NCBI GenBank assembly: GCA_016235155.1
Contig: JACRLW010000029.1
Span: 20,693 to 84,692, forward strand
Length of the DNA: 64,000 bases
Source of the DNA: Planctomycetota bacterium
GTDB lineage: Bacteria > Planctomycetota > UBA1135 > UBA2386
Reading direction: 5' to 3'
The notes beneath the pieces are model-generated. The model saw only the letters and a list, made by a program, of their open reading frames with translations, did not search any database and was not told the origin of the DNA. Positions within the stretch are counted from its first letter, which is position 1. Every line of letters begins with the position of its first letter. Shown here one piece after another: positions 11,232 to 25,800 of the stretch. The translations under genes were made by a program, and so were the position numbers.

Positions 11232-12419
11232 ATGCAACCGCAGCTCCTCCCTCTCATCGGTGCGGCGGCCTTCGCGGCATCGCTGCTCGCACAAGCCCCG
11301 ATCCCAGCCCTGAGCGACGCGTCCTTCCGCGCCTTGCACGCTCAGGTCGTCCCGCAAGCGTGCGAGACCTGGGAGACGATTCCGTGGCGCGTCGACCTGC
11401 TCGCTGCGGTGCGCGAGGCGGAGGCGACGGGGCGGCCCTTGTTCCTGTGGACGATGAACGGGCATCCGCTCGGCTGCACCTGAAACAACGGCGTGCTCGA
11501 CCGTGCGTCGAGCTTTGCGCGCGAGGACGTCGTGACGATGCTGCGCGAGGACTACGTGCCGGTCGCACTCGACGTGTGGTACGAGGAGCGGCGGCAGGAC
11601 GAAGCCGGCGCTTTCTATCGGGCGCTCGTCGCGCAGCGCGAGGGACTGCGCGCGGGGCACACGACGCAGGGCTTCTACGTCGCGCGCCCGGACGGACATC
11701 TGCTGCGCGGCTGGAACAACCGCGACCCGGACAAGCTCGCGCGATGGCTGCGCGAACACCGCAAGGCGTCGGAACCGGCGGATGAGAGGACGACTGCGCC
11801 CGCCGCGGCGACCGAAGTCGATCGGCGCTTCGCACGTCGCCTCCCCGAGGGCGCGGTCGTCGCCGACGTGTTCACGCGCATCACCGACGCGGAGTGGCCC
11901 GCACGTGATCGCGGCTGGATGGACGAGGCGATGCGCAAGGCGACGGGTCGCGATCACCTGTGGATCACCGCGGAGGAGATCGCGGCGCTCGCGCGTCGCG
12001 AAGTGCCCGCGACGCTCGCGCGCCGCATCGCGCGCTTCCACCTCGTCGACGACACGCGCGGCGAGCCGCCGATGTGGAGGCAGGGCGAACTGGCCGAGGT
12101 CGCGCTCGCCTTCGAACCGATCGCGGACGGGACGGCGCCGCCGGCCCTCGCCGGCCACGCCCGCCTCGCGACCGGCGACGGCAAGCGGCGCTGCGAAGCG
12201 GCGCTGCGCGGCGAGGTCGCGATCGACGAGAACGGTCGCCTCGTGCGCTTCGACCTCGTCGCGCGCTGCGCGTTCGCGGGCGAAGGCGAGTTCACGCCGC
12301 ATGCCCCGCCGGGCACCTTCACGCTCGTCGTCGCGATGCGCCTCGCTCCGCCGGACGGCCAGGACCGTGTGCCGCCGCAGGCCGCGCGCGATCTCGACGA
12401 GTACCTGCGCGCACGCTGA
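11232..12419 (+). CDS. Candidate selenoprotein: exported thioredoxin-like protein with in-frame TGA (Sec84)
   Basis: Reading through one in-frame TGA at 11481-11483 gives a continuous 395-residue protein. It has a signal peptide (MQPQLLPLIGAAAFAASLLA), then a thioredoxin-7-like segment 'LLAAVREAEATGRPLFLW', and the motif G-C-T-U-N-N-G with Cys82 and Sec84 exactly where this fold places its redox cysteines. After the TGA the same frame continues with well-formed protein sequence ('DVVTMLREDYVPVALDV', 'TTQGFYVARPDGHLLRGW') for 311 more residues. A stable hairpin starts 11 nt after the TGA (see separate entry). The second half (about residues 190-395) is not recognised. The ATG 11232 was preferred to GTG 11223. 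The alternative is a nonsense mutation in a CxC thioredoxin-like gene. No sel genes occur in this window. Confidence 0.7.
11491..11520 (+). promoter_or_regulatory. SECIS-like hairpin just downstream of the in-frame TGA
   Basis: A perfect 7-bp stem pairs 11495-11501 (GCTCGAC) with 11507-11513 (GTCGAGC) around the 5-nt loop CGTGC (11502-11506). An outer 3-bp stem pairs 11491-11493 with 11518-11520 across a small internal loop. The apical loop begins 18 nt after the TGA, and its second base is G. This agrees with the known bacterial SECIS layout: a hairpin within the coding sequence directly after UGA, with a small loop carrying a G near its 5' side, recognised by SelB. Pairing is seen in the sequence; function is inferred. 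Confidence 0.6.
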
Positions 12420-12485
12420 CCCCCGCGCGGCGCCGTGCCTATGCAAGCCCGGCCCCCGCGCCTACCCTCCCCGTCCGCCGCGCCG

Positions 12486-12989
12486 GTGCCCCTGCAGTTC
12501 CGCGCGGCGACCTGTCGATCCAAGCCCGTCGTGTCCGCCGCATCCGATCGCAAGTCCGTCGTCGCGCTGACCCTGGCACTCGCCTGGGTCGCGACCTTGG
12601 TCTTCTGCCTCGGCGTGCAGCGTTTCGTCGTCGTCTGCGACGGTCCTCATTGCGACTCGCGCGTCGAGCTCGCGCACGACGAGTCCGCGTGCTGCGAGCG
12701 GACTCACGCCGACGAATCCGCAGACGAGCCTGCGGACGAGCCCGCGGGCGAACACGCGGACGCGGATCACGACCACGGGTGTTCGGACGCCGCGTTCGTG
12801 ATCGGCAACGGACCGCTGCCGCGCGCGGTCGGGATCGAACTCGACTCGACGGGCGTGATCGTCCCTCCGCCGATCGCCGGAAAGGACGACGCATGCGCGC
12901 CGCGCATCGCGTTGCGGCCGCGGGCGGCAGGTCCACCGCAGGACGAGCAGCGCCTGCGACGGCTCGCGACCGTCGTGTTGTTGATCTGA
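12486..12989 (+). CDS. Small membrane protein with His/Asp/Cys-rich segment, leader of the first metal-efflux operon
   Basis: A 167-residue protein with one hydrophobic segment ('VVALTLALAWVATLVFCLGV') followed by 'CDGPHCDSRVELAHDESACC' and an acidic His-containing stretch ('HADADHDHGC'), which suggest metal binding outside the membrane. It ends in 'VVLLI'. A second protein with the same position before a TolC-adaptor-RND operon (19394-19888) shares the 'FRAAT' N-terminus and the 'VVLLI' end, so I placed both starts at GTG codons that align them. ATG 12441 is an alternative start here. The role is probably in metal sensing or delivery to the pump encoded downstream; this is inference. Confidence 0.6.
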   Translation: MPLQFRAATCRSKPVVSAASDRKSVVALTLALAWVATLVFCLGVQRFVVVCDGPHCDSRVELAHDESACCERTHADESADEPADEPAGEHADADHDHGCSDAAFVIGNGPLPRAVGIELDSTGVIVPPPIAGKDDACAPRIALRPRAAGPPQDEQRLRRLATVVLLI

Positions 12990-13076
12990 GTCGACGTTGC
13001 GCGCGCCGGGCCGTGACCCCGGTGCGACGCGCAGGCGCAGGCCTGCCGGAACAACGTCCTCGATCCACGACACCGC

Positions 13077-14405
13077 ATGCACGAACTCCGTTTCGCCACA
13101 CCCATCGCCTGCCTTCTCGCCGCCGGCTGCCAGACCTACGCGCCCGCGCCGGTCGATCTCGCCGCGCACGCCCAGGCCTTCGCCGATCGGATCCCCGACC
13201 CGACGGCCCTCCGCGCGTCCGCGCTCGATGACGGCCTCGACCTGAACGAGGCTCGCCACGTCGCCCTGGTGTTCAACGCGGAACTCCGGGTCGCGCGGCT
13301 GCGCGCGGGCGTCGTGCAAGCGTCCGTCGACACCGCGGGTCGCTGGGACGATCCCGAGTTCCGCGGCGACTTCGCCAGGATCCTCGAAGGCGTCCCTCAC
13401 CCCTGGCTCGCCGGGGGGGCGATCGGCCTGACGCTGCCGATCACCGGCCGGCCGTCGCTCGAGAAGGAACTGGCCGCGAGCCGGCACGGCGAAGCGCTGC
13501 TGCAAGCGCGGCAGGCCGAGGCCGCGGTGTTGAACGCGCTCGACGAAGCCTGGGTGACCTGGAGCACCGCACGGCTCTCGCTGCAGTTGCTCGAGGACCT
13601 CGTCGCGCGCCTCGACGGTCTCGAAGCGATGGCTACGCGATTGAGCGCCGCGCACGAGATCTCGCAGATCGAAGCGCGGACCTTCACGCTCGCGAAGGTG
13701 GCGCGGCAGGCGGAGCTGCTCGACGTCCGCAGCAAGCTCCGCGACGCGGAGCTGGAGATCCGTCGCCTGCTCGGGCTCGCTCCTGATCGCGACCTGGCCC
13801 TCGTGCCGTCGGTCCGGATCGACGTTCGCGTCGCGGCAGGCGAGCGCCGCCGCGCGCTGCTGGACGAGAGTCCGCGCGTCGCCCTCGCGAGACGCCGCCA
13901 CGAGGTCGCCGAGCGGAACCTCGCGCTCGCGGTGCGGAAGCAATGGCCGGAGCTCACGCTCTTCCCCGGCTTCCAGGAGGAAGACGCGCAACCGCGCGCC
14001 GCGCTCGGCTTCGCGTTGCCGATCCCGTTGTGGAACAGGAACGCGCGCGAGATCGCCGACGCGCGCGCCGATCGCGAGCAAGCAGCCGAGGCGCTGCGCG
14101 CGAGCCTCGAAGGCGCGACCCAGGACCTCGCCCGCGCGGAACTGCGCAGCGACGCCGCGCGGGAACGCCGCGCGCTGGTCGACGCGCAGCTCGTGCCGCT
14201 CGCCGAGCAGCAGCTCCTCGATGCGCAGCGGCTCGTCGAACTCGGCCGCCTCGACACGCTGCTCATCCTCGACGCACTCACCCGGTCCCACGAAGCCAAG
14301 GTGCTCGCGCTCCGCGCGGCCCTCGCCGAGGCGGAAGCCGCGGTCGCGATCAACTCACTGTTCTGGCCGGCGTCGATCGCCGGCGAAGGTGCGGAGGCAC
14401 GATGA
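13077..14405 (+). CDS. TolC-family outer-membrane efflux lipoprotein (CusC/CzcC-like)
   Basis: A 442-residue protein with a lipobox L-A-A-G-C (Cys18) after a short hydrophobic signal. Long amphipathic helices rich in Ala, Glu and Arg alternate with short beta segments ('AIGLTLPITGRPSLEKELA', 'ALGFALPIPLWNRNAREI'), the two-fold pattern of outer-membrane efflux proteins. In heavy-metal RND systems this subunit forms the outer-membrane channel. The stop codon overlaps the start of the adaptor gene by ATGA, and the pump follows, so the three form one tripartite operon. Confidence 0.88.
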   Translation: MHELRFATPIACLLAAGCQTYAPAPVDLAAHAQAFADRIPDPTALRASALDDGLDLNEARHVALVFNAELRVARLRAGVVQASVDTAGRWDDPEFRGDFARILEGVPHPWLAGGAIGLTLPITGRPSLEKELAASRHGEALLQARQAEAAVLNALDEAWVTWSTARLSLQLLEDLVARLDGLEAMATRLSAAHEISQIEARTFTLAKVARQAELLDVRSKLRDAELEIRRLLGLAPDRDLALVPSVRIDVRVAAGERRRALLDESPRVALARRRHEVAERNLALAVRKQWPELTLFPGFQEEDAQPRAALGFALPIPLWNRNAREIADARADREQAAEALRASLEGATQDLARAELRSDAARERRALVDAQLVPLAEQQLLDAQRLVELGRLDTLLILDALTRSHEAKVLALRAALAEAEAAVAINSLFWPASIAGEGAEAR

Positions 14406-15808
14406 AGCTCAGGACCTGCGCGTTTGCTCTCCTCGGACTCGGCTTCGTCGCCGCCGCATGCCGTGACGAATCGTCCCCACTCCCGCACGTCGAGCAGGAG
14501 ACCCAGCCGACCAACCGGATCGACGTGCCGGAGATCGTCCGGCGCAATCTCGGCATCGCCTTCGTCACCGTCGAACGGCGTCGCGTCGGGCAGACCCTGC
14601 GCGTGCCGGGCCACTTCGAACTCCTGCCGTCGGCGCGTCACGAACACCGCGTGCCGGTCGCGGGCCGCGTCGAGGTGCTCGTGCAACCGCTGCAGGCGGT
14701 GGCGACGGGCGACCTGCTGTTCCGCATCGACTCGCCGACGTGGCGGCAAGTGCAGCGCGAGCTCGGCGAGCTGTCCGCGTCGATGCGGGCGACCGAGGCG
14801 CGCTTCGCGTCGATGCAGCCGCTGGTCGCGGCGCATCGCGTCCACGAGGAGAGCCTGAAGGAAGCGGTCGCCGTCATCGAAGCGCGGGTCGCAAGCCTGA
14901 GAGCGACGCAGGCAAGCGTCGGCGGCCAGGCGGAGGAACTCGCCACCGCGCAGATCCAGCTCGCGCAGACGCGCGCGGATCTGGCGGAGGCGGCCGAGAA
15001 GGAGGCCGGGACGACGGCGCTCGTCGCGGAACTGCAGGCCAACCTCCAGGCGAGCCGCGATCGCTTCGACCTCGCGCTCGCCGCCGCCGCGACGCTGGTC
15101 TCGACGACGCCCGCGCAGCTGACGGCCGCGCCGGCCAACGCGCTGCCGCCCTGGCGCACGATCACCGCGATCGAAGTGCGCGCGACGGCTGCGGGCATCG
15201 CCGACAAGTTGCCCGTCGCCACCGGCGTCTGGGTCGAGACCGGCGAACTCGTGCTGACGGTCAGCGACCTCGGCCAGGTGCGCTTCCGTGCGCGCGGACT
15301 CCAGAGCGACCTGCCGCGACTGCGCGAGGGACTGCGCGCGCGGATCGTGTTGCCGCAGGGTCAGACGGAGGTCACGCAAGGACTCGACGGCCGGCTCGCG
15401 CTCGGCGTCGAGGCGGATCCCGCGCAGCGCACGATCGACCTGTTCGTGCAGCCCTCGGCCAACGCTCCGTGGGCGAGGCCCGGCGTCGCCGGTTTCCTGG
15501 AGATCGAACTCCGCGACGACTCGCCGGCGGAACTCGCGATCCCGTCGTCCGCGGTCCTTCAGGACGGACTCGAGAAGGTCTTCTTCCGCCGCGACCCGGC
15601 CGACCCCGACACCGTGATCCGCGTCGCCGCCGACCTCGGCGTCGACGATGGCCGCTGGGTCGAAGTGAAGAGCGGCATCAAGGACGGCGATCAGGTCGTG
15701 CTCGGCGGCGCCTACGAGTTGATGCTCGCGAGTTCGGGCAGCGCCGCGAAGGGCGGCCACTTCCATTCCGACGGCACGTTCCACGCCGGCGAGGAGAAGG
15801 GGAAGTAG
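14402..15808 (+). CDS. RND efflux periplasmic adaptor lipoprotein (CusB/CzcB-like)
   Basis: A 468-residue membrane-fusion protein. The signal ends in the lipobox V-A-A-A-C (Cys20), so it is anchored to a membrane. Seen in order: the first half of the lipoyl/barrel-sandwich domain ('HRVPVAGRVEVLVQPLQAVATGDLLFRI', about 81-108), a long coiled-coil hairpin (110-240), the second half ('IEVRATAAGIADKLPVATGVWV') and a beta-barrel domain with 'LAIPSSAVLQDGLEKVFFRR'. The tail 'GGHFHSDGTFHAGEEKGK' has three histidines, which could bind metal. It links the TolC protein upstream and the RND pump downstream (7-nt gap). Confidence 0.9.
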   Translation: MKLRTCAFALLGLGFVAAACRDESSPLPHVEQETQPTNRIDVPEIVRRNLGIAFVTVERRRVGQTLRVPGHFELLPSARHEHRVPVAGRVEVLVQPLQAVATGDLLFRIDSPTWRQVQRELGELSASMRATEARFASMQPLVAAHRVHEESLKEAVAVIEARVASLRATQASVGGQAEELATAQIQLAQTRADLAEAAEKEAGTTALVAELQANLQASRDRFDLALAAAATLVSTTPAQLTAAPANALPPWRTITAIEVRATAAGIADKLPVATGVWVETGELVLTVSDLGQVRFRARGLQSDLPRLREGLRARIVLPQGQTEVTQGLDGRLALGVEADPAQRTIDLFVQPSANAPWARPGVAGFLEIELRDDSPAELAIPSSAVLQDGLEKVFFRRDPADPDTVIRVAADLGVDDGRWVEVKSGIKDGDQVVLGGAYELMLASSGSAAKGGHFHSDGTFHAGEEKGK

Positions 15809-15815
15809 CCCGCGC

Positions 15816-18800
15816 ATGTTCCGCAACCTGATCGCCTTCTCGCTGCGGCAGCCGTCGATGGTGCTGTTGCTCGCCGCGCTCGTCCTCTTGTTCGCGGTCT
15901 ACCAGATCCCGCGGATGCCGATCGACGTGTTCCCCGAGCTCAACGCGCCGACCGTCGTCGTGCTGACCGAAGCGCCCGGACTCGCCGCGGACGAGGTCGA
16001 GCAGAACGTGACGTTCCCGATCGAGAGCGCGGTGAACGGTCTGCCGGGCGTGCGCCGCGTGCGGAGTTCGAGCGCGATCGGTCTTTCGATCGTGTGGGTC
16101 GAGTTCGAGTGGGGCGAGGACATCTACCGCGCGCGGACGCTCGTCGGCGAGAAGCTGAGCGGAGTGCGCGACGCCCTGCCCGAGAACGTGCACGCGGAGA
16201 TCACGCCGATCACGTCGATCACCGGCGAGATCATGCTCCTGTCGTTGTCGTCGCCCGACGGCAGCAAGACGCCGATGGAGATCCGCGCCTACGGCGAGTT
16301 CGACCTGCGCAACCTGCTGCTCGCCGTGCCGGGCGTCGCGCAGGTCGTGGCGATCGGCGGCGACCTGCCCGAGTACCAGGTCAACGTGCGGATGGAGCAA
16401 TTGCAGCTCCATGGACTCACGGTGGAGGACGTCGTCGAGGCGGCGCGCACCTCGCACAGCACGGCGGGCGCCGGCTACCTGCCCGACGTGCACGGGCTCG
16501 AACTCCCGGTCCGGCAGACGGGCCGCGTGCGGTCCGTCGCCGACATCGAGGGCACGGTGGTCCGCTTCCGCGACGGCAGCCCGATCACGATCGGCCAGGT
16601 CGCGGAGGTGAAGCTCGGTGCGGCGCCCAAGCGCGGCACCGCTTCGGAGGGCGGCAGGTCCGCGGTCGTCCTCTCCGTGCAGAAGGGACCGGGCACGAAC
16701 ACGCTGCGCCTGACCGAGGCGATCGACGCCAAGCTCGATGCCGCGCAGCAAACCATGCCGCCGGGGATCGTCCTGAACCGCCACGTCATGCGGCAGTCGG
16801 ACTTCATCCAGCTCTCGATCGACAACCTGATCAGGGTGCTCCGCGACGCCGCGATCTTCGTCGTGATCGTGCTCGTGATGTTCCTGCTCGACGTCCGCAC
16901 GACCTTCATCACGCTCGCCGCGTTGCCGCTGAGCCTCGCGGTCGCCTTGCTGGTGCTGTGGGCCTGGGGGCTGTCGATCAACGTCATGACCCTCGGCGGA
17001 CTCGCCGTCGCGATCGGCGGCCTGGTCGACGACGCGATCATCGACGTCGAGAACGTGTTCAGGCGCCTGCGCCAGCGCGGCGCGCGCGCCGGCGGCGCGA
17101 CGGAGAGCGTGGCCCACGTCGTGCTCACGGCGAGCAACGAGATCCGCCAGCCGATGGTCTTCGCGACCATCATCATCGTGATGGTGTTCGTGCCGCTGCT
17201 GTTCCTGCAGGGGCTCGAAGGGCGCTTCTTCCGGCCGCTCGGGATCGCCTACATCGTCTCGACGCTCGCTTCGCTGCTCGTCGCGCTGACGGTGACTCCG
17301 GCCCTGTGCCGCTTCCTCCTGCAAAAGGTCGGCGGCGGCCGCGATCACGGCGACGGCTTCCTCGTGCGCTGGTTGAAGCACCGCTACGAACCGTCGCTGC
17401 GCAAGGCGCTCGCGCATGCGAAGACCGTGCTCGCCGCGGCGGCACTCGCGACGGTCGCGAGCCTGGGCCTCGCCTCGACCTACGGCACGAGCTTTCTGCC
17501 CGAGTTCAACGAGGGCACCTTCACCGTCTTCCTGATGGCGCCGCCGGGCACGTCGCTCGTGGAGAGCGATCGGCTCGCGGTCGGCGTGGAGGGTCAGCTC
17601 GCGAAGGTCTCGGGCGTGCGCACGGTCGTGCGACGCACGGGTCGCGCCGAACGCGACGAGCACGCCGAACCCGTGAGCAGCTCGGAGATCGACGTCACCA
17701 TCGTCCCCGGGCACGACAAGTTCGAGGTGCGGCGCGCGATCGACGCGGTCCTCTCCGGCGTGCCGGGCATCACCACCAGCATCGGGCAGCCGATCGAACA
17801 TCGGCTCTCGCACGTGCTGTCGGGCACGCCGGCGGCGATTGCGGTCGTCGTCCAGGGCGACGACCTGAGCGTGCTGCGCTCGCTGGCCAAGTCCATCGAG
17901 ACCGAGTTGAAGGCGATCCCCGGTACGCGCGACGTCGCCGCCAATCGCGAAGTGCTGATCACGTCGCTGCCGGTCCGCTACCGCCCGCGGGACCTCGCGG
18001 CCGTCGGCTTGAGTCCGGCTTCGGCCGCCGAGCAGGTGCAGGACGCGTTGATGGGAGAAACGGTCGCCGAGGTCAACGAGGGTGTCCGCCGCTACCCGAT
18101 CACCGTGCGACTCCATCCCGACGAGCGCGCGCGGGTGGAGGACGTCGGCGCGTTGCTGCTGCGCGGCGCCGGCGGCGCGACGGTGCGGCTCGCGGACGTC
18201 GCGGACATCGGTCCCGAGCGCACGTCGAACCTGATCGCGCGCGAGCACGGCCGGCGCAAGGCGCTGGTCTCCTGCAACGTCGCCGACGGCTACAACCTCG
18301 GCCAACTCGTCGCGGCGGTCAAAGAACATGTCGAACCGATCGTCGCGCGCGCGGGATGCACGCTGGCGCTCGGCGGCCAGTTCGAGGCGCAGCAATCCGC
18401 GAGCAAGACGATCCTCGTGATGGGGGCGTTCGTGATCCTCCTGATGCTGCTGCTCGTGAACTCGGCGCTCGGGTCGATGCGCGCGGCGATGCTCGTGATG
18501 GTCAACCTCCCGCTCGCGCTCATCGGCGGGATCGCCGCGATCTACCTCACCGAGTCGCCGAGCCTGTGGTGGAACTCGCTCGCGTTGTTCGGTCTCGGCG
18601 GCGGGCGCTACCAGGCGCCGGTGATCTCGATCGCGAGCCTGGTCGGCTTCGTCACGCTGTTCGGCATCGCGGTGCGCAACGGCATCCTCCTCGTCCGGCA
18701 CTACTTCGACCTGATGCGCGACGGCGTGCCTCTCGCCGAAGCCGTGGTCCGCGGTTCGCTCGAGCGCCTCGTGCCGATCCTGATGACGGCGCTCACCGCG

Positions 18801-18992
18801 GCGCTCGGTCTCGTGCCCCTGGTCCTTGCGGCCGGCGAATCCGGCAGCGAGATCCTCGCACCCCTCTCGGTGGTCGTCCTCGGCGGTCTCTTGACCTCGA
18901 CCTTCCTCAACGTCCTCGTCGTCCCCGCGGGCTTCTTTTTGATGTTCAGGTCGCGGCCCCACCTCCTTCCGCTCAACGCCGAGCAGCCATGA
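15816..18992 (+). CDS. Heavy-metal RND efflux pump, inner-membrane subunit (CusA/CzcA-like)
   Basis: A 1058-residue proton-driven pump with the usual two-fold layout: TM1 (residues 12-32), a large periplasmic loop, TM2-6, TM7, a second periplasmic loop and TM8-12. The HME-type proton-relay motif 'AIGGLVDDAIIDVENVFRRL' is present around residue 400, with paired aspartates. N-terminal 'FPELNAPTVVVLTEAPGLAADEVEQNVTFPIE' is typical of the CusA/CzcA group. It exports metal cations from periplasm or cytoplasm through the TolC protein encoded two genes upstream. The metal cannot be set from sequence alone. The gene is intact, unlike its paralog at 22860-26072, which carries an insertion. Confidence 0.92.
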   Translation: MFRNLIAFSLRQPSMVLLLAALVLLFAVYQIPRMPIDVFPELNAPTVVVLTEAPGLAADEVEQNVTFPIESAVNGLPGVRRVRSSSAIGLSIVWVEFEWGEDIYRARTLVGEKLSGVRDALPENVHAEITPITSITGEIMLLSLSSPDGSKTPMEIRAYGEFDLRNLLLAVPGVAQVVAIGGDLPEYQVNVRMEQLQLHGLTVEDVVEAARTSHSTAGAGYLPDVHGLELPVRQTGRVRSVADIEGTVVRFRDGSPITIGQVAEVKLGAAPKRGTASEGGRSAVVLSVQKGPGTNTLRLTEAIDAKLDAAQQTMPPGIVLNRHVMRQSDFIQLSIDNLIRVLRDAAIFVVIVLVMFLLDVRTTFITLAALPLSLAVALLVLWAWGLSINVMTLGGLAVAIGGLVDDAIIDVENVFRRLRQRGARAGGATESVAHVVLTASNEIRQPMVFATIIIVMVFVPLLFLQGLEGRFFRPLGIAYIVSTLASLLVALTVTPALCRFLLQKVGGGRDHGDGFLVRWLKHRYEPSLRKALAHAKTVLAAAALATVASLGLASTYGTSFLPEFNEGTFTVFLMAPPGTSLVESDRLAVGVEGQLAKVSGVRTVVRRTGRAERDEHAEPVSSSEIDVTIVPGHDKFEVRRAIDAVLSGVPGITTSIGQPIEHRLSHVLSGTPAAIAVVVQGDDLSVLRSLAKSIETELKAIPGTRDVAANREVLITSLPVRYRPRDLAAVGLSPASAAEQVQDALMGETVAEVNEGVRRYPITVRLHPDERARVEDVGALLLRGAGGATVRLADVADIGPERTSNLIAREHGRRKALVSCNVADGYNLGQLVAAVKEHVEPIVARAGCTLALGGQFEAQQSASKTILVMGAFVILLMLLLVNSALGSMRAAMLVMVNLPLALIGGIAAIYLTESPSLWWNSLALFGLGGGRYQAPVISIASLVGFVTLFGIAVRNGILLVRHYFDLMRDGVPLAEAVVRGSLERLVPILMTALTAALGLVPLVLAAGESGSEILAPLSVVVLGGLLTSTFLNVLVVPAGFFLMFRSRPHLLPLNAEQP

Positions 18993-19393
18993 TCCGCATG
19001 TCGCGCGTCGCTCTCTCGCCAGCCGAAGGCTCGATGAAGACCCGCTTCGAGAAGACGACCTCGACCCGGATGCACGGCCATCCCGAAGTGCCCATCGCGG
19101 CCGAGGCCGCAACCCATCCGGGTTGCTGGCGTCGGCTCTGGCGCGCCGACCGAGGAGTCCTCGACCGCTCTCTTTGCTGGGGCCCTTCGTCCTCCGAATC
19201 CTCGCGCCGCGCGAGGATTCTCCGGGCTACGGGCCCATGACGATGCCCGGCGGCAGCAAGCTCTGGCTCGAGGTCGAGTCCGCCGCGGGGACGCAGCGGG
19301 CCTCGATCGCGTTTCGGCCGTGACCGGTCCAGATCGCCGCAGCCGAAGCCCGATGACTTGCGCGTTCCGCTTCCTGCACCTAGGTTCGCGACC
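18993..19393. other. Scarred intergenic region between the two efflux operons
   Basis: No complete gene is supported in these 401 nt. It holds one copy of the dispersed hairpin element (19091-19236). Directly after the element, an ATG at 19237 opens a 28-codon frame (MTMPGGSKLWLEVESAAGTQ...) to a stop at 19323. This reads like the C-terminal end of an exported protein and is probably a gene fragment. 18993-19090 shows no recognisable feature. Confidence 0.5.
19091..19236 (+). repeat. Dispersed hairpin element, copy 1
   Basis: The first 36 nt (from CCCATCGCGGCCGAGGCCGC onwards) are identical to copy 2 at 24335, and the rest is clearly related. It contains the hairpin GCAACCC/GGGTTGC with an ATCC loop, a GTCGGC/GCCGAC stem, and a perfect 11-bp stem GAATCCTCGCG/CGCGAGGATTC near its end. 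The element ends at GGGCCC, directly followed by ATG (19237). The last stem differs in sequence from the other copies but keeps full pairing. Confidence 0.8.
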
Positions 19394-19888
19394 GTGAGTT
19401 CCAGCCCGACGTTCCGCGCGGCGACAGCATGGCTTTGCGTGCTGTTGTGCCTGCTGAGTTCGTCGGCGCCTGGTCGCAACTACGCGGTCTGCCTCGAACC
19501 GGACGGAGGGACGGGGATCACGCGTCTCGTCGACGGGCGCTGCTCGGGTTGCCCGGATGCGTGCGGCGAGCCGGCGGCGCAAGAGCAGGAGCGCGGACAC
19601 GAGTCGTGTTGCCGCGCGCACGCGAAGCCGGCTCCGCGCATCGATGCGCCCGCCTTGTCCGCGCACGAACCCTGTTCGTGCGTCGACCTGCAGCTGCCTT
19701 CGCTCGGCGACGGCGCGGCGAAGCCGGACGACGTCGTGCACCAGTTTCCTGCCGTGCTGCCGGCGCCCGAGACGAACTGGTGCCTCGCCGTCGTGCATGA
19801 CGCGCGCTGCGTCGCGATCGCGCCCGTCGCCGAGGAGCGACCGCCGCCACGATGGGCGCATCTGCGCTGCGTCGTCCTCCTGATCTGA
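19394..19888 (+). CDS. Small Cys-rich exported protein, leader of the second metal-efflux operon
   Basis: A 164-residue protein with an N-terminal hydrophobic signal or anchor ('TAWLCVLLCLLSSSA'), ten or so cysteines in the exported part ('DGRCSGCPDACGEP', 'ESCCRAHAKP', 'HEPCSCVDLQ') and the terminal 'VVLLI' shared with the protein at 12486-12989. The GTG start at 19394 aligns the 'FRAAT' N-termini and has a TAGGTT hexamer 7 nt upstream. Its constant place ahead of TolC-adaptor-RND genes suggests a metal-binding or regulatory part of the efflux system. I do not recognise a named family. Confidence 0.6.
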   Translation: MSSSPTFRAATAWLCVLLCLLSSSAPGRNYAVCLEPDGGTGITRLVDGRCSGCPDACGEPAAQEQERGHESCCRAHAKPAPRIDAPALSAHEPCSCVDLQLPSLGDGAAKPDDVVHQFPAVLPAPETNWCLAVVHDARCVAIAPVAEERPPPRWAHLRCVVLLI

Positions 19889-19961
19889 TCGACGGTCCCG
19901 CGTCGCGGACCCTCGTGCCTTCGCGTCGCAGCGGAGGCACCGTCGATCGAGATCGAAGACC

Positions 19962-21326
19962 GTGCCCAGACACCGCATCGCCAGCTTGTCGTGCGCCGCA
20001 CTCGCGGCGTGCACCGCGTACGAGCCGCAGCCGCTCGAGCCCGCCGTCGAACTCGCCGCACTCGCGAGCGCGACGCTCGACGGCAAGGCGCCCGTCGCCG
20101 GCGACTTCGACCCGAGCGACGGCCTCGACGACCGCGAGCTCGTCGCGTTCGCGCTCGCCAGCAACCCGGGGCTGCGCGCGAAGCGGCTGCAGGCCGGCGA
20201 GACGCAAGCGCTGCTCGTCACCGCGGGACTGCTGCCGAACCCCGAGCTCGGCCTGCAACTGCGTCCGGGCCTCGGGACCGACGGCGGTCTCGCCGCCGCC
20301 GCCGACCTGCTCTTCCCGTTCCTCCGCGCCGGCGAACGCGTCGCGCGCCGCGACGTCGCGCGCGCACACATCGACAAGACGCGCGCGGAGCTGATCGGCG
20401 ACGAACTGCGCGTCGCCGTCGCCGCACGCACCGCGAGCCTGCGCATCCGCGCGCAGGACGATCTCGTGCGTCACCTCGAACAGGAGCTCGCTCTCCGCGA
20501 CGAAGCCGTCGCACTCGTCGAGCGCCGGCGCGAACTCGGCGAGAGCACGAGGATCGCGGGAGCGCTCGCCGAGCTCGAGCGCATCGACGTCGGCCGCGAA
20601 CTGCGTGCGGCGCGCACCGGACTCGATCGCGAGCAGCGCTCGCTCGGCGAACTGCTCGGACTGACACCCGAGACGATCGTGCCGCTCGCCGCGCGCGGCG
20701 AACCGCTGCGCCTCGACCCGGTCGCCGACGTCGAGGACGCCGAGATCGACCGTCGCCTTCTCGCGCACGTGCCCGAGTTGCGTGCGCTCGCGGCGGAGCA
20801 TCGCATCGCCGAGGCCGAGCTGCGGCTCGCGATCCGCCGGCAGTACCCCGCCTTCGCGCTCGGCCCCGCCTTCGAGCGCGACGTCGACGGCGACCGCTCG
20901 CTCGGCCTCGGAATCGCGATCGAGCTGCCGATCTTCGACCGCGCGCAGGGCGAGATCGCGCAGAGGCTCGCGCAGCGCGAACGCGTGCGTGCGGACTACG
21001 TCGCTCGCCTGCATGCGCTGCGCGCATCGGCGTTCGCGGCGCGCGCGGAGTTGCGCCTGGCCCGCGACGAGGCGGACTTGCAACGCCGCGAGGTGCTGCC
21101 GGTGATCGAGCGCACCGAGGCGCTGTTCGAACAAGCTCTGCGCGCGGGCGAAGTGACCGTGACCGACTGGCTCGCGGCGCGCACGCGTGCACGCACGGTG
21201 CGCCGCGACTGGCTCGACGCCGTCGTCCGCCACGCCGGCGCCGTGATCCGATTCGAGGCCGCGACGGGTTTCCTGCTCGGCGCGCCTGTCCCCAGCACGA
21301 CTGCCCCGTCCGACGTCGAGAACTGA
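19962..21326 (+). CDS. TolC-family outer-membrane efflux lipoprotein
   Basis: A 454-residue protein with a lipobox-like A-L-A-A-C (Cys17), then the long Ala/Arg/Glu-rich helices of outer-membrane channel proteins. The internal two-fold repeat shows as 'LLPNPELGLQLRPGLGTDGG' and 'FALGPAFERDVDGDRSLGLG', each followed by a helix with 'LPIFDRAQGEIAQRLAQRE'-type sequence. The start codon is GTG. It is followed after 15 nt by the adaptor gene and then by the RND pump, so it is the outer-membrane part of the second efflux system. Confidence 0.87.
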   Translation: MPRHRIASLSCAALAACTAYEPQPLEPAVELAALASATLDGKAPVAGDFDPSDGLDDRELVAFALASNPGLRAKRLQAGETQALLVTAGLLPNPELGLQLRPGLGTDGGLAAAADLLFPFLRAGERVARRDVARAHIDKTRAELIGDELRVAVAARTASLRIRAQDDLVRHLEQELALRDEAVALVERRRELGESTRIAGALAELERIDVGRELRAARTGLDREQRSLGELLGLTPETIVPLAARGEPLRLDPVADVEDAEIDRRLLAHVPELRALAAEHRIAEAELRLAIRRQYPAFALGPAFERDVDGDRSLGLGIAIELPIFDRAQGEIAQRLAQRERVRADYVARLHALRASAFAARAELRLARDEADLQRREVLPVIERTEALFEQALRAGEVTVTDWLAARTRARTVRRDWLDAVVRHAGAVIRFEAATGFLLGAPVPSTTAPSDVEN

Positions 21327-21341
21327 CAGAGGAGAACTGAC

Positions 21342-22847
21342 ATGAGAGTACTGACGAAGCTTCCCGCGCTGGGCTCGCTGCTCGCGCTCGCCGGCGTGAG
21401 CGTCTTCGGGTTCTCGACCGGCTGGTCCGCGCCGAAGTTCCGCGAGCTGTTCGGCGCACGCGCAACCGCGCCGGTCGAAGACTGGTGCCCGACGCACAAC
21501 GTGACGCAGTCGCGCTGCGTCGCGTGCAATCCGTCGCTCGCCGGCGAGAACGCCGCCGATTGGTGCAAGGAGCACGGCGTGCCCGAGTCGCGCTGCACGA
21601 TCTGCCACCCGGAGATCCTCACGACCGGCGTCGCGGGCGACTGGTGCAAGGAGCACGGGCTGCCCGAGAGCGGTTGCACGCTCTGCCACCCCGAGATCGC
21701 GCGGATCGACGAACGAGCGCCCGTGCCGGGCGACGTCACCGTCGCGCGGGGCACGGCACAGGACCGCGACCCGTCGACCTGCCAGAAGCACCTGATGAAG
21801 GTGCAGTTCGCATCGCCGGCCGCGGTCGCGAAGACCGGGCTCGCGTTCGCGCCCGTGGTCTCGAGACCGATGACCGACGTCGTCGTCGCGACCGCGACGA
21901 TCGACTACGACCGCACGCGCTACGCGCGCGTGGCGTCGCGCGTCGCCGGCACCGCGGTGCACGTCGGGAAGAACGCCGGTGATCCGGTTCGCGCCGGCGA
22001 CGTGCTGGCGAAGATCGAGTCGCCCGAAGTCGCGCGCGCGCAGAGCGAGTACCTCGCGGCGCGCGCGGCGCTCGAGGTCGCCGAACGCGCGCTCGAGCGT
22101 CTCAGCGCGTCGGCCGAGGCCGGCTTCCGCACCGCGAACGAGCGGCTCGAGGCGGACGCTCGTCGGATCGAAGCGGCGGGGCGCGTCGCGACCGCGAGCA
22201 CGGCGCTCACGAGCCTGCGCGTCGCGATGCCAAACGACGCGGCGGCAACTGCGCTGGTGTCGCTCGAAGCACCGCTCGACGGAACCATCGTCGCGCGCGA
22301 TCTCGTGCTCGGCGATCCGGTCGAACCGGCGACCCTGCTGTTCGCGATCGCCGATCTCACGCGACTCTGGATCGTCCTCGACGTCGCCGAGCGCGACGCG
22401 TCGCGCGTGGCGCTCGGGCAGACCGTCGTGTTCCGCGCCGACGGCGCGCCCGACGAAGCACAGAAGGGCGTCGTCACGTGGATGGCGTCCGAGGTCGGCG
22501 CGCGCACGCGCACGGTGCGCGTCCGTGCCGACCTGGAAGTCCCGGCCGGCTCGCTGCGCGCGAACACCTTCGGCGTGGCGAGGGTCGTCGTGCGCCGCAC
22601 GGCCGAAGCGATAGCGGTGCCCAACGCGGCGCTCCAGTGGGAGGGCTGCTGCCACGTCGTGTTCGTGCGGATGACCGACGAGCTGTTCGAGACGCGCAAG
22701 GTGCGCCTCGGCGCGCGCGACGACGAGTTCACCGAGATCGTCGCGGGCGTGCTGCCGGGCGAGACGGTCGTCACCACCGGCAGTCACGTGCTGAAGTCCG
22801 AGATCAACAAGAGCCTGCTCGGCGCCGGTTGCTGCGACGACCGCTGA
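21342..22847 (+). CDS. RND efflux adaptor with three N-terminal Cys/His 'DWC' repeats
   Basis: A 501-residue periplasmic adaptor. After an N-terminal membrane segment (about 8-24) come three repeats of the form D-W-C-x2-H-x-V/L-x2-S-x-C-x2-C at residues 47-62, 73-88 and 100-115, and then a looser 'DPSTCQKHLMKVQF'. Each repeat offers Cys and His ligands, so binding of Cu, Ag or Zn is likely. The usual adaptor domains follow: barrel-sandwich ('RVASRVAGTAVHVGKNAGDPV'), helical hairpin, second half ('SLEAPLDGTIVARDLVLGDPV') and C-terminal beta domain. The C-terminus has 'GAGCCDDR'. Repeats of the same kind occur in the small lipoprotein at 26069, the last gene of this efflux set. Confidence 0.88.
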   Translation: MRVLTKLPALGSLLALAGVSVFGFSTGWSAPKFRELFGARATAPVEDWCPTHNVTQSRCVACNPSLAGENAADWCKEHGVPESRCTICHPEILTTGVAGDWCKEHGLPESGCTLCHPEIARIDERAPVPGDVTVARGTAQDRDPSTCQKHLMKVQFASPAAVAKTGLAFAPVVSRPMTDVVVATATIDYDRTRYARVASRVAGTAVHVGKNAGDPVRAGDVLAKIESPEVARAQSEYLAARAALEVAERALERLSASAEAGFRTANERLEADARRIEAAGRVATASTALTSLRVAMPNDAAATALVSLEAPLDGTIVARDLVLGDPVEPATLLFAIADLTRLWIVLDVAERDASRVALGQTVVFRADGAPDEAQKGVVTWMASEVGARTRTVRVRADLEVPAGSLRANTFGVARVVVRRTAEAIAVPNAALQWEGCCHVVFVRMTDELFETRKVRLGARDDEFTEIVAGVLPGETVVTTGSHVLKSEINKSLLGAGCCDDR

Positions 22848-22859
22848 GCGACGCACACC

Positions 22860-25800
22860 ATGTTCGAACGCGTCATCACCTGGTCCGTGCGCCGCCGCGG
22901 CGCCGTCCTGCTGCTCGCGCTCGCGGCGGCGCTCGGCGGCGCGTGGTCGCTGCAACAACTCGACATCGACGCGTTCCCCGACACGACGCCGGTGCAGGTG
23001 CAGATCAACGCCGTCGCGCCGGCGATGGCTCCCGAGCAGATCGAGCAGCAGATCACCGCGCGGATCGAGTACGCGATCGCAGGGCTTCCCGGCCTGCTGA
23101 CCCTGCGCTCGGTCTCGAAGTTCGGCTGGGCGCAGGTCGTCGCGACCTTCCACGACGACGTCGACGTGTGGTTCGCGCGACGCCAGTGCAGCGAGCGGCT
23201 CGCGAGCGTCGTGCTGCCGCCCGGCATCGACCCGCCCGAACTCGGGCCGGTGGCGACGGGACTGGGCGAAGTCCTGCAGTACGTGCTGAGCTCGGAGCAC
23301 GCCGGCCTCGAGGAGCTGCGGACCGCGCACGACTGGATCGTCCGACCCGCGTTGCGCGCCGTCCCCGGCGTGGCGGAGGTCAACACCTGGGGCGGACTCG
23401 AGCGGCAATACGTCGTGCGCGTCGATCCGCGGCGGCTGGTCGCGCGCGGCATCACGTTGGCGCAACTCACGCAGGCGCTGCGCGAGAACAACGTCCTCGC
23501 CGGCGGCGGCAACCTCGCCGGCGGCGGGGCGATGGTGCTCGTGCAGGGCATCGGCAGCGTCGCGAACCTCGAACAGATCGGGCGCATCGTCGTCGCCGAA
23601 GACGAGCACGTGCCGATCCTGGTGGACGACGTCGCGACCGTGGAGATCGGCGCGGAGATCCGGCGCGGCGCGGTGACCCATCAGGGCGCGGGCGAAGCGG
23701 TGCTAGGACTGGGCTTCATGCTCGCCGGCGAGAACACGCACGAGGTCACGTCGCGGTTGAAGGCGAAACTCGCCGAGCTCGCGCTCGGGTTGCCGGACGG
23801 CATGCGCGTGCAGGTCGTCTACGACCGCACGCAACTCGTCGACCTCGTCATCGACACGGTCAGTACCAACCTCTTCGAGGGCGGGCTGCTCGTCATCGCG
23901 GTGCTGTTCGTCTTCCTCGGCCACCTGCGCGCGGGGTTGATCGTCGCGGCCGCGATCCCGCTCTCGATGCTGTTCGCGTTCGCGGGCATGTTCCGCTGGG
24001 GCATCGCCGGCAGCCTGATGAGTCTCGGCGCGATCGACTTCGGGCTGATCGTCGACAGCTCGGTCATCCAGATCGAGAACGTCGTGAGGCGCCTCTCGAA
24101 GGAAGGTGATCGACCGCGCGTCGACGTCGTGCGCGACGCCGTGCTCGAAGTGCGCAAGCCGACGATGTTCGGCGAGCTGATCATCGCGCTCGTCTACGTG
24201 CCGATCCTGTTGCTCGAAGGCGTCGAGGGGAAGCTGTTCCGCCCGATGGCGCTGACGGTGATCTTCGCGCTCGCGGGCTCGCTGATCCTCTCGCTCACGG
24301 TGATGCCGGCGCTCGCGGCGTCACTGCTGCGCCACCCATCGCGGCCGAGGCCGCAACCCATCCGGGTTGCAGGCGTCGTCGCTGACGCGACGACCAAGAT
24401 GGCCTCGACCGCTCTTCTTGCTGGGGCCCTCCGGCCTCACGAATCGTCGCGTCCCGCGGCGATTCTCCGGCCTTCGGGCCGAGCGAAGTCCAGGGAACCG
24501 TGGGCGGTGCGCGCCTCGCTTGCCGTCTATCGCCCGGTGCTGCGCGCCGTGACCCGCCATCGCCTCGCGGTGATCGGCCTTGCGATCGCGGCACTGGGCG
24601 CCGGCGCGATCGTCGCGCGTGGACTCGGCGCGGAGTTCGTTCCGCGGCTCTCGGAGGGCACGATCGGCGTCAACGTGGTGCGCCTCGCCGGCACCGATCT
24701 CGCCGAGTCGGTCCGCTACAACACGCAGATGGAGCGCGCGCTGCTCGCGGCGTTCCCCGACGAGATCGAGCACGTCTGGAGCCGCGCGGGTTCGGCCGAG
24801 GTGACGACCGATCCGATGGGCGTCGAGCTCACCGATCTGTTCATCACGCTGCGGCCGCGCGCGCAGTGGCGCCGCGCCGCGCGGCAGGACGAACTCGCGG
24901 CACTCGTGCAGCGCGAGCTGCGCGACATGCCGGGCCAACGCCTCGCGTTCCAGCAGCCGATCGAGATGCGCATGGCGGAGATGACCGCGGGCGTTCGCGG
25001 CGACGTGGCGGTGAAGGTGTTCGGCGACGACCTCGCCACGCTCGCCGAGACGGCGAACCAGGTCGGCGCGCTGCTCGGTCGCATCGACGGCGCCGCCGAC
25101 CTGAGCACCGAGCAGGTGACGGGTCAGCCGGTGCTCGCGATCCGCGCCGATCAGGAGGCGCTCGCGCGTCATGGCGTGCCCGCGTCGGCGGTGATGGCCG
25201 TCGTCGAAGCGCTCGGTTCGTCGCCCGTGGGCGAGGTCGTCGAAGGTCAGCTCCGCTTCCCACTGGTCGTGCGTCTCGTCGAGCGCGATCGCCGCGACGC
25301 CGCCGCGGTCGGCGCGATCCTCGTCGCGGGTCCCGATGGGATGCAGGTTCCGCTGGCGCAGCTCACGCGGATCGAAGACGTCGTCGGTCCGTCGACGATC
25401 TCGCGCGAGGCGGGCCAGCGTCAGGTCACGGTGCAGGTCAACGTGCGCGGCCGCGACATCGCCGGCTTCGTCGCGGAGGCTCGCGAGACGATCGCGGCCG
25501 GCGTCGCGATGCCGTCGCCGCGCTACCGCATCGAGTGGGGCGGGCAGTTCGAGCACTTCGAGCGCGCCCGCACGCGCCTCTTGTTCGTCGTGCCCGCCGT
25601 GCTGCTCCTGATTGCCGTCCTGCTCTGGCTGACCTACCGCAGCGTGCGCGACGCGTTGCGCGTGTTCACCGGCGTGCCGTTCGCCGTCGTCGGCGGAGTG
25701 ATCGCGCTGTGGGTGCGCGAGATGCCGTTCTCGATCTCGGCGGCGGTCGGCTTCGTCGCGCTGTCGGGCGTGGCGGTGCTCGGGGACATGGTGCTCGTGT

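Follow-up and report, generated by a model that had tools for sequence, protein, structure and literature searches.

The 64,000-nt window analysed here (contig JACRLW010000029.1 of the Planctomycetota bacterium assembly GCA_016235155.1, positions 20,693 to 84,692) contains a gene for a thioredoxin (Trx)-like protein whose in-frame UGA, at codon 84, is almost certainly decoded as selenocysteine (Sec). The joint statement that Sec is inserted there and that the product is a Trx-fold, probably redox, protein is also highly probable. Comparison across homologs showed a UGA that appears to be translated and a hairpin that appears to be under selection, with the Sec system present; conservation of the codon is taken as the decisive evidence for the Sec reading. 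Translated with TGA as U, the gene gives one continuous protein of 395 residues with U84 in the sequence H-P-L-G-C-T-U-N-N-G, as the preliminary description of this DNA had stated. The gene itself ends in TGA (12417-12419), and a general reassignment of UGA can thus be dismissed.

In the genome collection, a homolog of 49% identity and another of 30% both have TGA at the corresponding codon. The phylum search returned hits from 124 of 392 planctomycete genomes, and nearly all of the long matches contained exactly one internal TGA; of 41 nearer relatives, 26 had a match. In 85 of the 392 sampled genomes a strong TGA-bearing homolog was present, frequently as multiple copies. No relatives were found in the plasmid and viral collections. 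The codon alignment was based on 74 distinct homologs, many at 22-35% identity and all from Planctomycetota, the one phylum searched in depth. Codon 84 is TGA in 66 of them, while the other eight carry Ser (six rows, three of which come from a clade aligning poorly at this codon), Asp or Pro. The preliminary description had proposed such an alignment and named homologs with neither Cys nor TGA as counter-evidence; TGA stands at this position almost everywhere and a Cys codon in none of the 74 rows. Cys homologs at the Sec position are usual, though not required, for selenoproteins, and the search profile, which carries C at the Sec column, did not disfavour them.

The maximum-likelihood tree requires at least four changes for the eight non-Sec rows, which argues for several losses of Sec; the family has probably lost it repeatedly, and its exchange for Cys was never seen. 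The remoter Thioredoxin_7-type proteins with CxxC probably fall outside the family. It may tentatively be proposed that in this widespread exported planctomycete family Sec, replaced on those occasions by Ser, Asp or Pro, is not exchangeable for Cys, and that the chemistry may need selenium itself. Adjoining duplicates at two loci (L079, 5551-8992, and L077, 4211-10333), where the TGA persists in one copy that has lost Cys82 and the other has lost Cys and Sec alike, are snapshots of Sec loss.

The analysis of 11 close pairs with no member in common revealed 263, 206 and 399 substitutions at the three codon positions before the TGA and 726, 546 and 1448 after it. The excess at third positions after the TGA indicates that the downstream part is translated, and the protein-like sequence noticed earlier beyond the TGA is thus under coding constraint.

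The hairpin GCTCGAC-CGTGC-GTCGAGC begins 11 nt past the TGA, with the 7-bp stem and 5-nt loop described previously, and its assignment to the bacterial selenocysteine insertion sequence (SECIS) layout is supported by covariation among 22 distinct sequences of the window's clade. With the TGA numbered 1-3, the 5-bp stem formed by positions 17-21 and 27-31 is 98.2% paired in this clade, and two-sided changes occur at three of its pairs. The covariation score of the stem was 0.376, compared with 0.119 for shuffled alignments, none of 500 reaching the observed value, and 0.005-0.068 for slid positions of the stem. Pair 18-30 is GC in 10 sequences, CG in nine and UA in three, and since both positions are third codon positions in nearly all rows, its covariation is unexplained by protein conservation. 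GU was present in the loop in 22 of 25 sequences. The minimum free energy fold of 63 nt around the TGA favours a different, longer stem (z = -1.7), and comparative evidence was therefore used. The idea of a single SECIS register for all homologs was rejected, since pairing occurs in different registers in the second clade.

The search of the window's own genome (85.5% complete) for selA, selB, selC and selD, suggested in the preliminary description, detected all four genes; a lack of selB or selC had been named there as an argument against Sec. The tRNA-Sec encoded by selC has the anticodon TCA, and selD (L139, G000:C70:46724-47647) carries a TGA at the known UxxK Sec site, in SCAAGUAAK. This selD, itself a selenoprotein gene, adjoins selA. 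Among the 85 genomes with strong TGA-bearing homologs, 80 have selB, versus 236 of 392 overall (Fisher p 4.6e-15, uncorrected for the relatedness of the genomes).

Signal-peptide-like N-termini were recognised in 65 of the 74 homologs by a simple hydrophobicity test, in agreement with the earlier suggestion of an exported protein. The full-length AlphaFold model, built like the other models with Cys substituting for Sec, has two domains (predicted local distance difference test, pLDDT, 91.8; predicted template modelling score, pTM, 0.90). As the full-length Foldseek search gave no match at E <= 0.001, a separate model of the Trx domain was used as the query, which retrieved Thioredox_DsbH, ERp19, AGR2/3 and DsbD-gamma and supports the Trx-like fold claimed before. 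The C-terminal beta-rich domain had no clear match in the PDB, and querying the PDB sequences with the profile of the full-length protein returned a chance match only. In the model, Sec84 stands immediately before the active-site helix, that is, at the place of the redox residue in Trx-fold oxidoreductases. The CxxC or UxxC motif with a cis-Pro, also expected of such enzymes, is not found; the motif here is CxU, and in our own alignment the invariant Gly147 appears to stand at the place of the cis-Pro. Apart from the Sec site, Cys82 is the sole conserved Cys of the family alignment, occurring in 61 of 74 homologs, which corresponds to 61 of at most 66 Sec-keeping rows, to within a few rows.

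Based on these features, the ribosome would read the UGA of codon 84 as Sec with the aid of tRNA-Sec bound by SelB and of the hairpin that closely follows the codon. The predicted product would be secreted or periplasmic, with an export signal, a Trx fold carrying the Cys-Thr-Sec loop, and an extra C-terminal domain. An oxidoreductase role is probable, in which Sec84 would act as the nucleophile and Cys82 would resolve it as a Cys-x-Sec selenenylsulfide, to be reduced again by an external thiol system. We regard a Cys82-Sec84 redox couple as fairly likely, while the assignment of any single substrate class (peroxide, protein disulfide or metal) is doubtful.

Several results weigh against decoding as Sec by a SECIS element or against the proposed redox pair. 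In the second, larger clade, pairing lies mostly about 4 nt further on, with GGU often in the loop and less uniformity, and in a few members of this clade pairing was poor whichever of the three registers was tried. Rfam SECIS_1 had no match in the window's own genome, nor in the control genomes, and no SECIS match was obtained at a relaxed threshold for six homolog loci. Several Sec-bearing homologs are devoid of Cys82, so the Cys-Sec pair is not obligatory. No selB was found in five of the 85 TGA-bearing genomes, all of them incomplete assemblies. A single read-through TGA with an open frame, taken alone, proves nothing in this window, because 36 TGAs in this GC-rich DNA are preceded by at least 80 and followed by at least 300 open codons. 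The same abundance of open frames would suit a true stop, whether in a pseudogene, through a sequencing error or between two chance open reading frames (ORFs). However, the same TGA recurs in 66 of the 74 homologs, which were assembled independently, and this refutes the explanation; the coding constraint past the TGA and the covarying hairpin also contradict it, which leaves it a negligible probability.

It is very improbable, too, that readthrough of the UGA, or its decoding as a different residue, takes place without Sec, e.g., by a near-cognate tRNA. Such a UGA could be regulatory, but the genome has the complete set of sel genes, including a selD with its own UGA at a known Sec site, the window gene itself terminates in TGA, and the family co-occurs with selB; in genomes G097, G174 and G296, the homologs have no TGA and selB was likewise not found. 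A further explanation accepts the selenoprotein but assigns to the Cys-Thr-Sec loop the binding of a metal or metalloid instead of thiol-disulfide or peroxide chemistry. Soft metals are bound by Cys and Sec, and the gene is followed on the same strand by a Cys/His-rich ORF and an RND-type efflux set. However, this efflux neighbourhood recurs in none of the 61 neighbourhoods compared, and most of the structural neighbours are redox or protein disulfide isomerase-like proteins; metal binding is therefore unlikely, and a redox-active selenoprotein is preferred.

The planctomycete family is missing from current catalogues: no NCBIfam or Pfam model fits it, and Table 1 of the May 2026 inventory of prokaryotic selenoproteins, whose text is silent on Planctomycetes, has no such family (PMC13188914). 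Planctomycete selenoproteins were reported from the Porphyra isolates P1 and P2 (PMC4807772), and the supplementary candidate list of that study lies outside the present comparison of novelty. The C-x-U arrangement had been called unusual, and it is, although the motif itself is already known: CxU is listed for Trx-like Sec.1, a rhodanese form, a UshA-like protein and ferredoxin-thioredoxin reductase (PMC13188914).

The VPGUxxT Trx selenoprotein (type 2; NF041383, OS_HP5), likewise a Trx-like Sec protein with planctomycetes among its hosts, is a distant relative of the family; over the Trx domain, comparison of the two profiles gave a probability of 92.6% and an E of 4.5e-7. The U-x-x-C loop of this relative falls at the C-T-U of the window family, with C82 and U84 aligned to its U and C; its motif is UxxC with Sec first, whereas ours is CxU with Sec second, and its C-terminal half differs and bears an MsrA-like motif. 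NF041383 has a curated cut-off of 275 bits and the VPGU motif; the window protein gave no match to this model, and two of the 74 homologs matched it weakly (best E 8.6e-4). Three planctomycete VPGUxxT type 2 loci (L142, L143 and L145) contain two TGAs, one in VPGU and the other in GMTUYWVGE or AMGUFWTGE, and the second position is Cys in L141 and L144. This second motif resembles the MsrA active site GCFWG.E, and these proteins look like a double-Sec Trx-MsrA fusion. The inventory lists the VPGUxxT family with one Sec (PMC13188914).

Sec.1 of Brachyspira (PF13192) is also a Trx-like selenoprotein with CxU (PMC13188914), but its Cys/Sec is located ahead of the Trx domain, in a short extension at the N-terminus, and Cys homologs of it exist (PMC5330540), unlike the window family, where Sec is in the Trx loop; Pfam Thioredoxin_3 had no match in the family. 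The Trx7/PDZ selenoprotein (NF041199) is of the Thioredoxin_7 type (PMC13188914, PMC9312934), and Thioredoxin_7 is the sole Pfam model touched, weakly, by the window family; it differs in its CxxU spacing and PDZ domain, and no family member matched NF041199 at E <= 0.01. The proteins structurally closest to the Trx domain, Thioredox_DsbH, AGR2-AGR3, ERp19 and DsbD-gamma (TM about 0.5-0.6), have Cys (CxxC or CxxS), without Sec and without the C-terminal domain. AGR2 was the best sequence match, still weak (E 0.047), with Sec84 aligned to the first Cys of its CPHS. Under either alignment, to AGR2 or to VPGUxxT, Sec84 would lie in the redox loop, though the matching thioredoxin Cys differs.

The family adds to the known selenoproteome a group that is large within one phylum. 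Standard gene-prediction programs end these genes at the UGA, and search strategies that depend on Cys/Sec pairs would overlook a family in which Cys homologs are missing. A protein of Trx fold in which Cys was never observed in place of Sec offers a direct test of what selenium can do and sulfur cannot.

Table 1. Features of the selenoprotein gene and its product, in window coordinates.
Feature	Position	Strand	Basis
Selenoprotein gene, 395 residues with Sec84	11232..12419	+	Read-through translation; full-length homologs with one internal TGA
Probable signal peptide (MQPQLLPLIGAAAFAASLLAQA)	11232..11297	+	Hydrophobic N-terminus
Trx-fold domain, residues 25-184	11304..11783	+	AlphaFold pLDDT 93.8; Foldseek
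Cys82 codon, putative partner of Sec in C-T-U	11475..11477	+	Alignment column counts
UGA codon for Sec84 (predicted)	11481..11483	+	Codon alignment: TGA 66/74 homologs, Cys codon 0/74
Bacterial-type SECIS hairpin, 7 bp, 5-nt loop CGUGC; conserved core 11497-11501 with 11507-11511	11495..11513	+	Pairing and compensatory changes, 22 relatives
C-terminal beta-rich domain, about residues 205-395, family-conserved	11844..12416	+	AlphaFold full-chain model

No conserved operon partner was found among the 61 neighbourhoods; ABC-F proteins recur across them at scattered distances. Downstream in the window, RND-type efflux genes (12435-24500) include OEP genes at 13077 and 19962 and an ACR_tran gene at 15816. 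A short Cys/His-rich ORF lies ahead of each OEP gene (12435-12989 and 19358-19888), the first beginning 16 nt past the selenoprotein gene. A 145-nt sequence is present twice in the window (19091-19235 and 24335-24480), with parts 88% and 83% identical, one copy after the ACR_tran gene and the other 5.2 kb further on.
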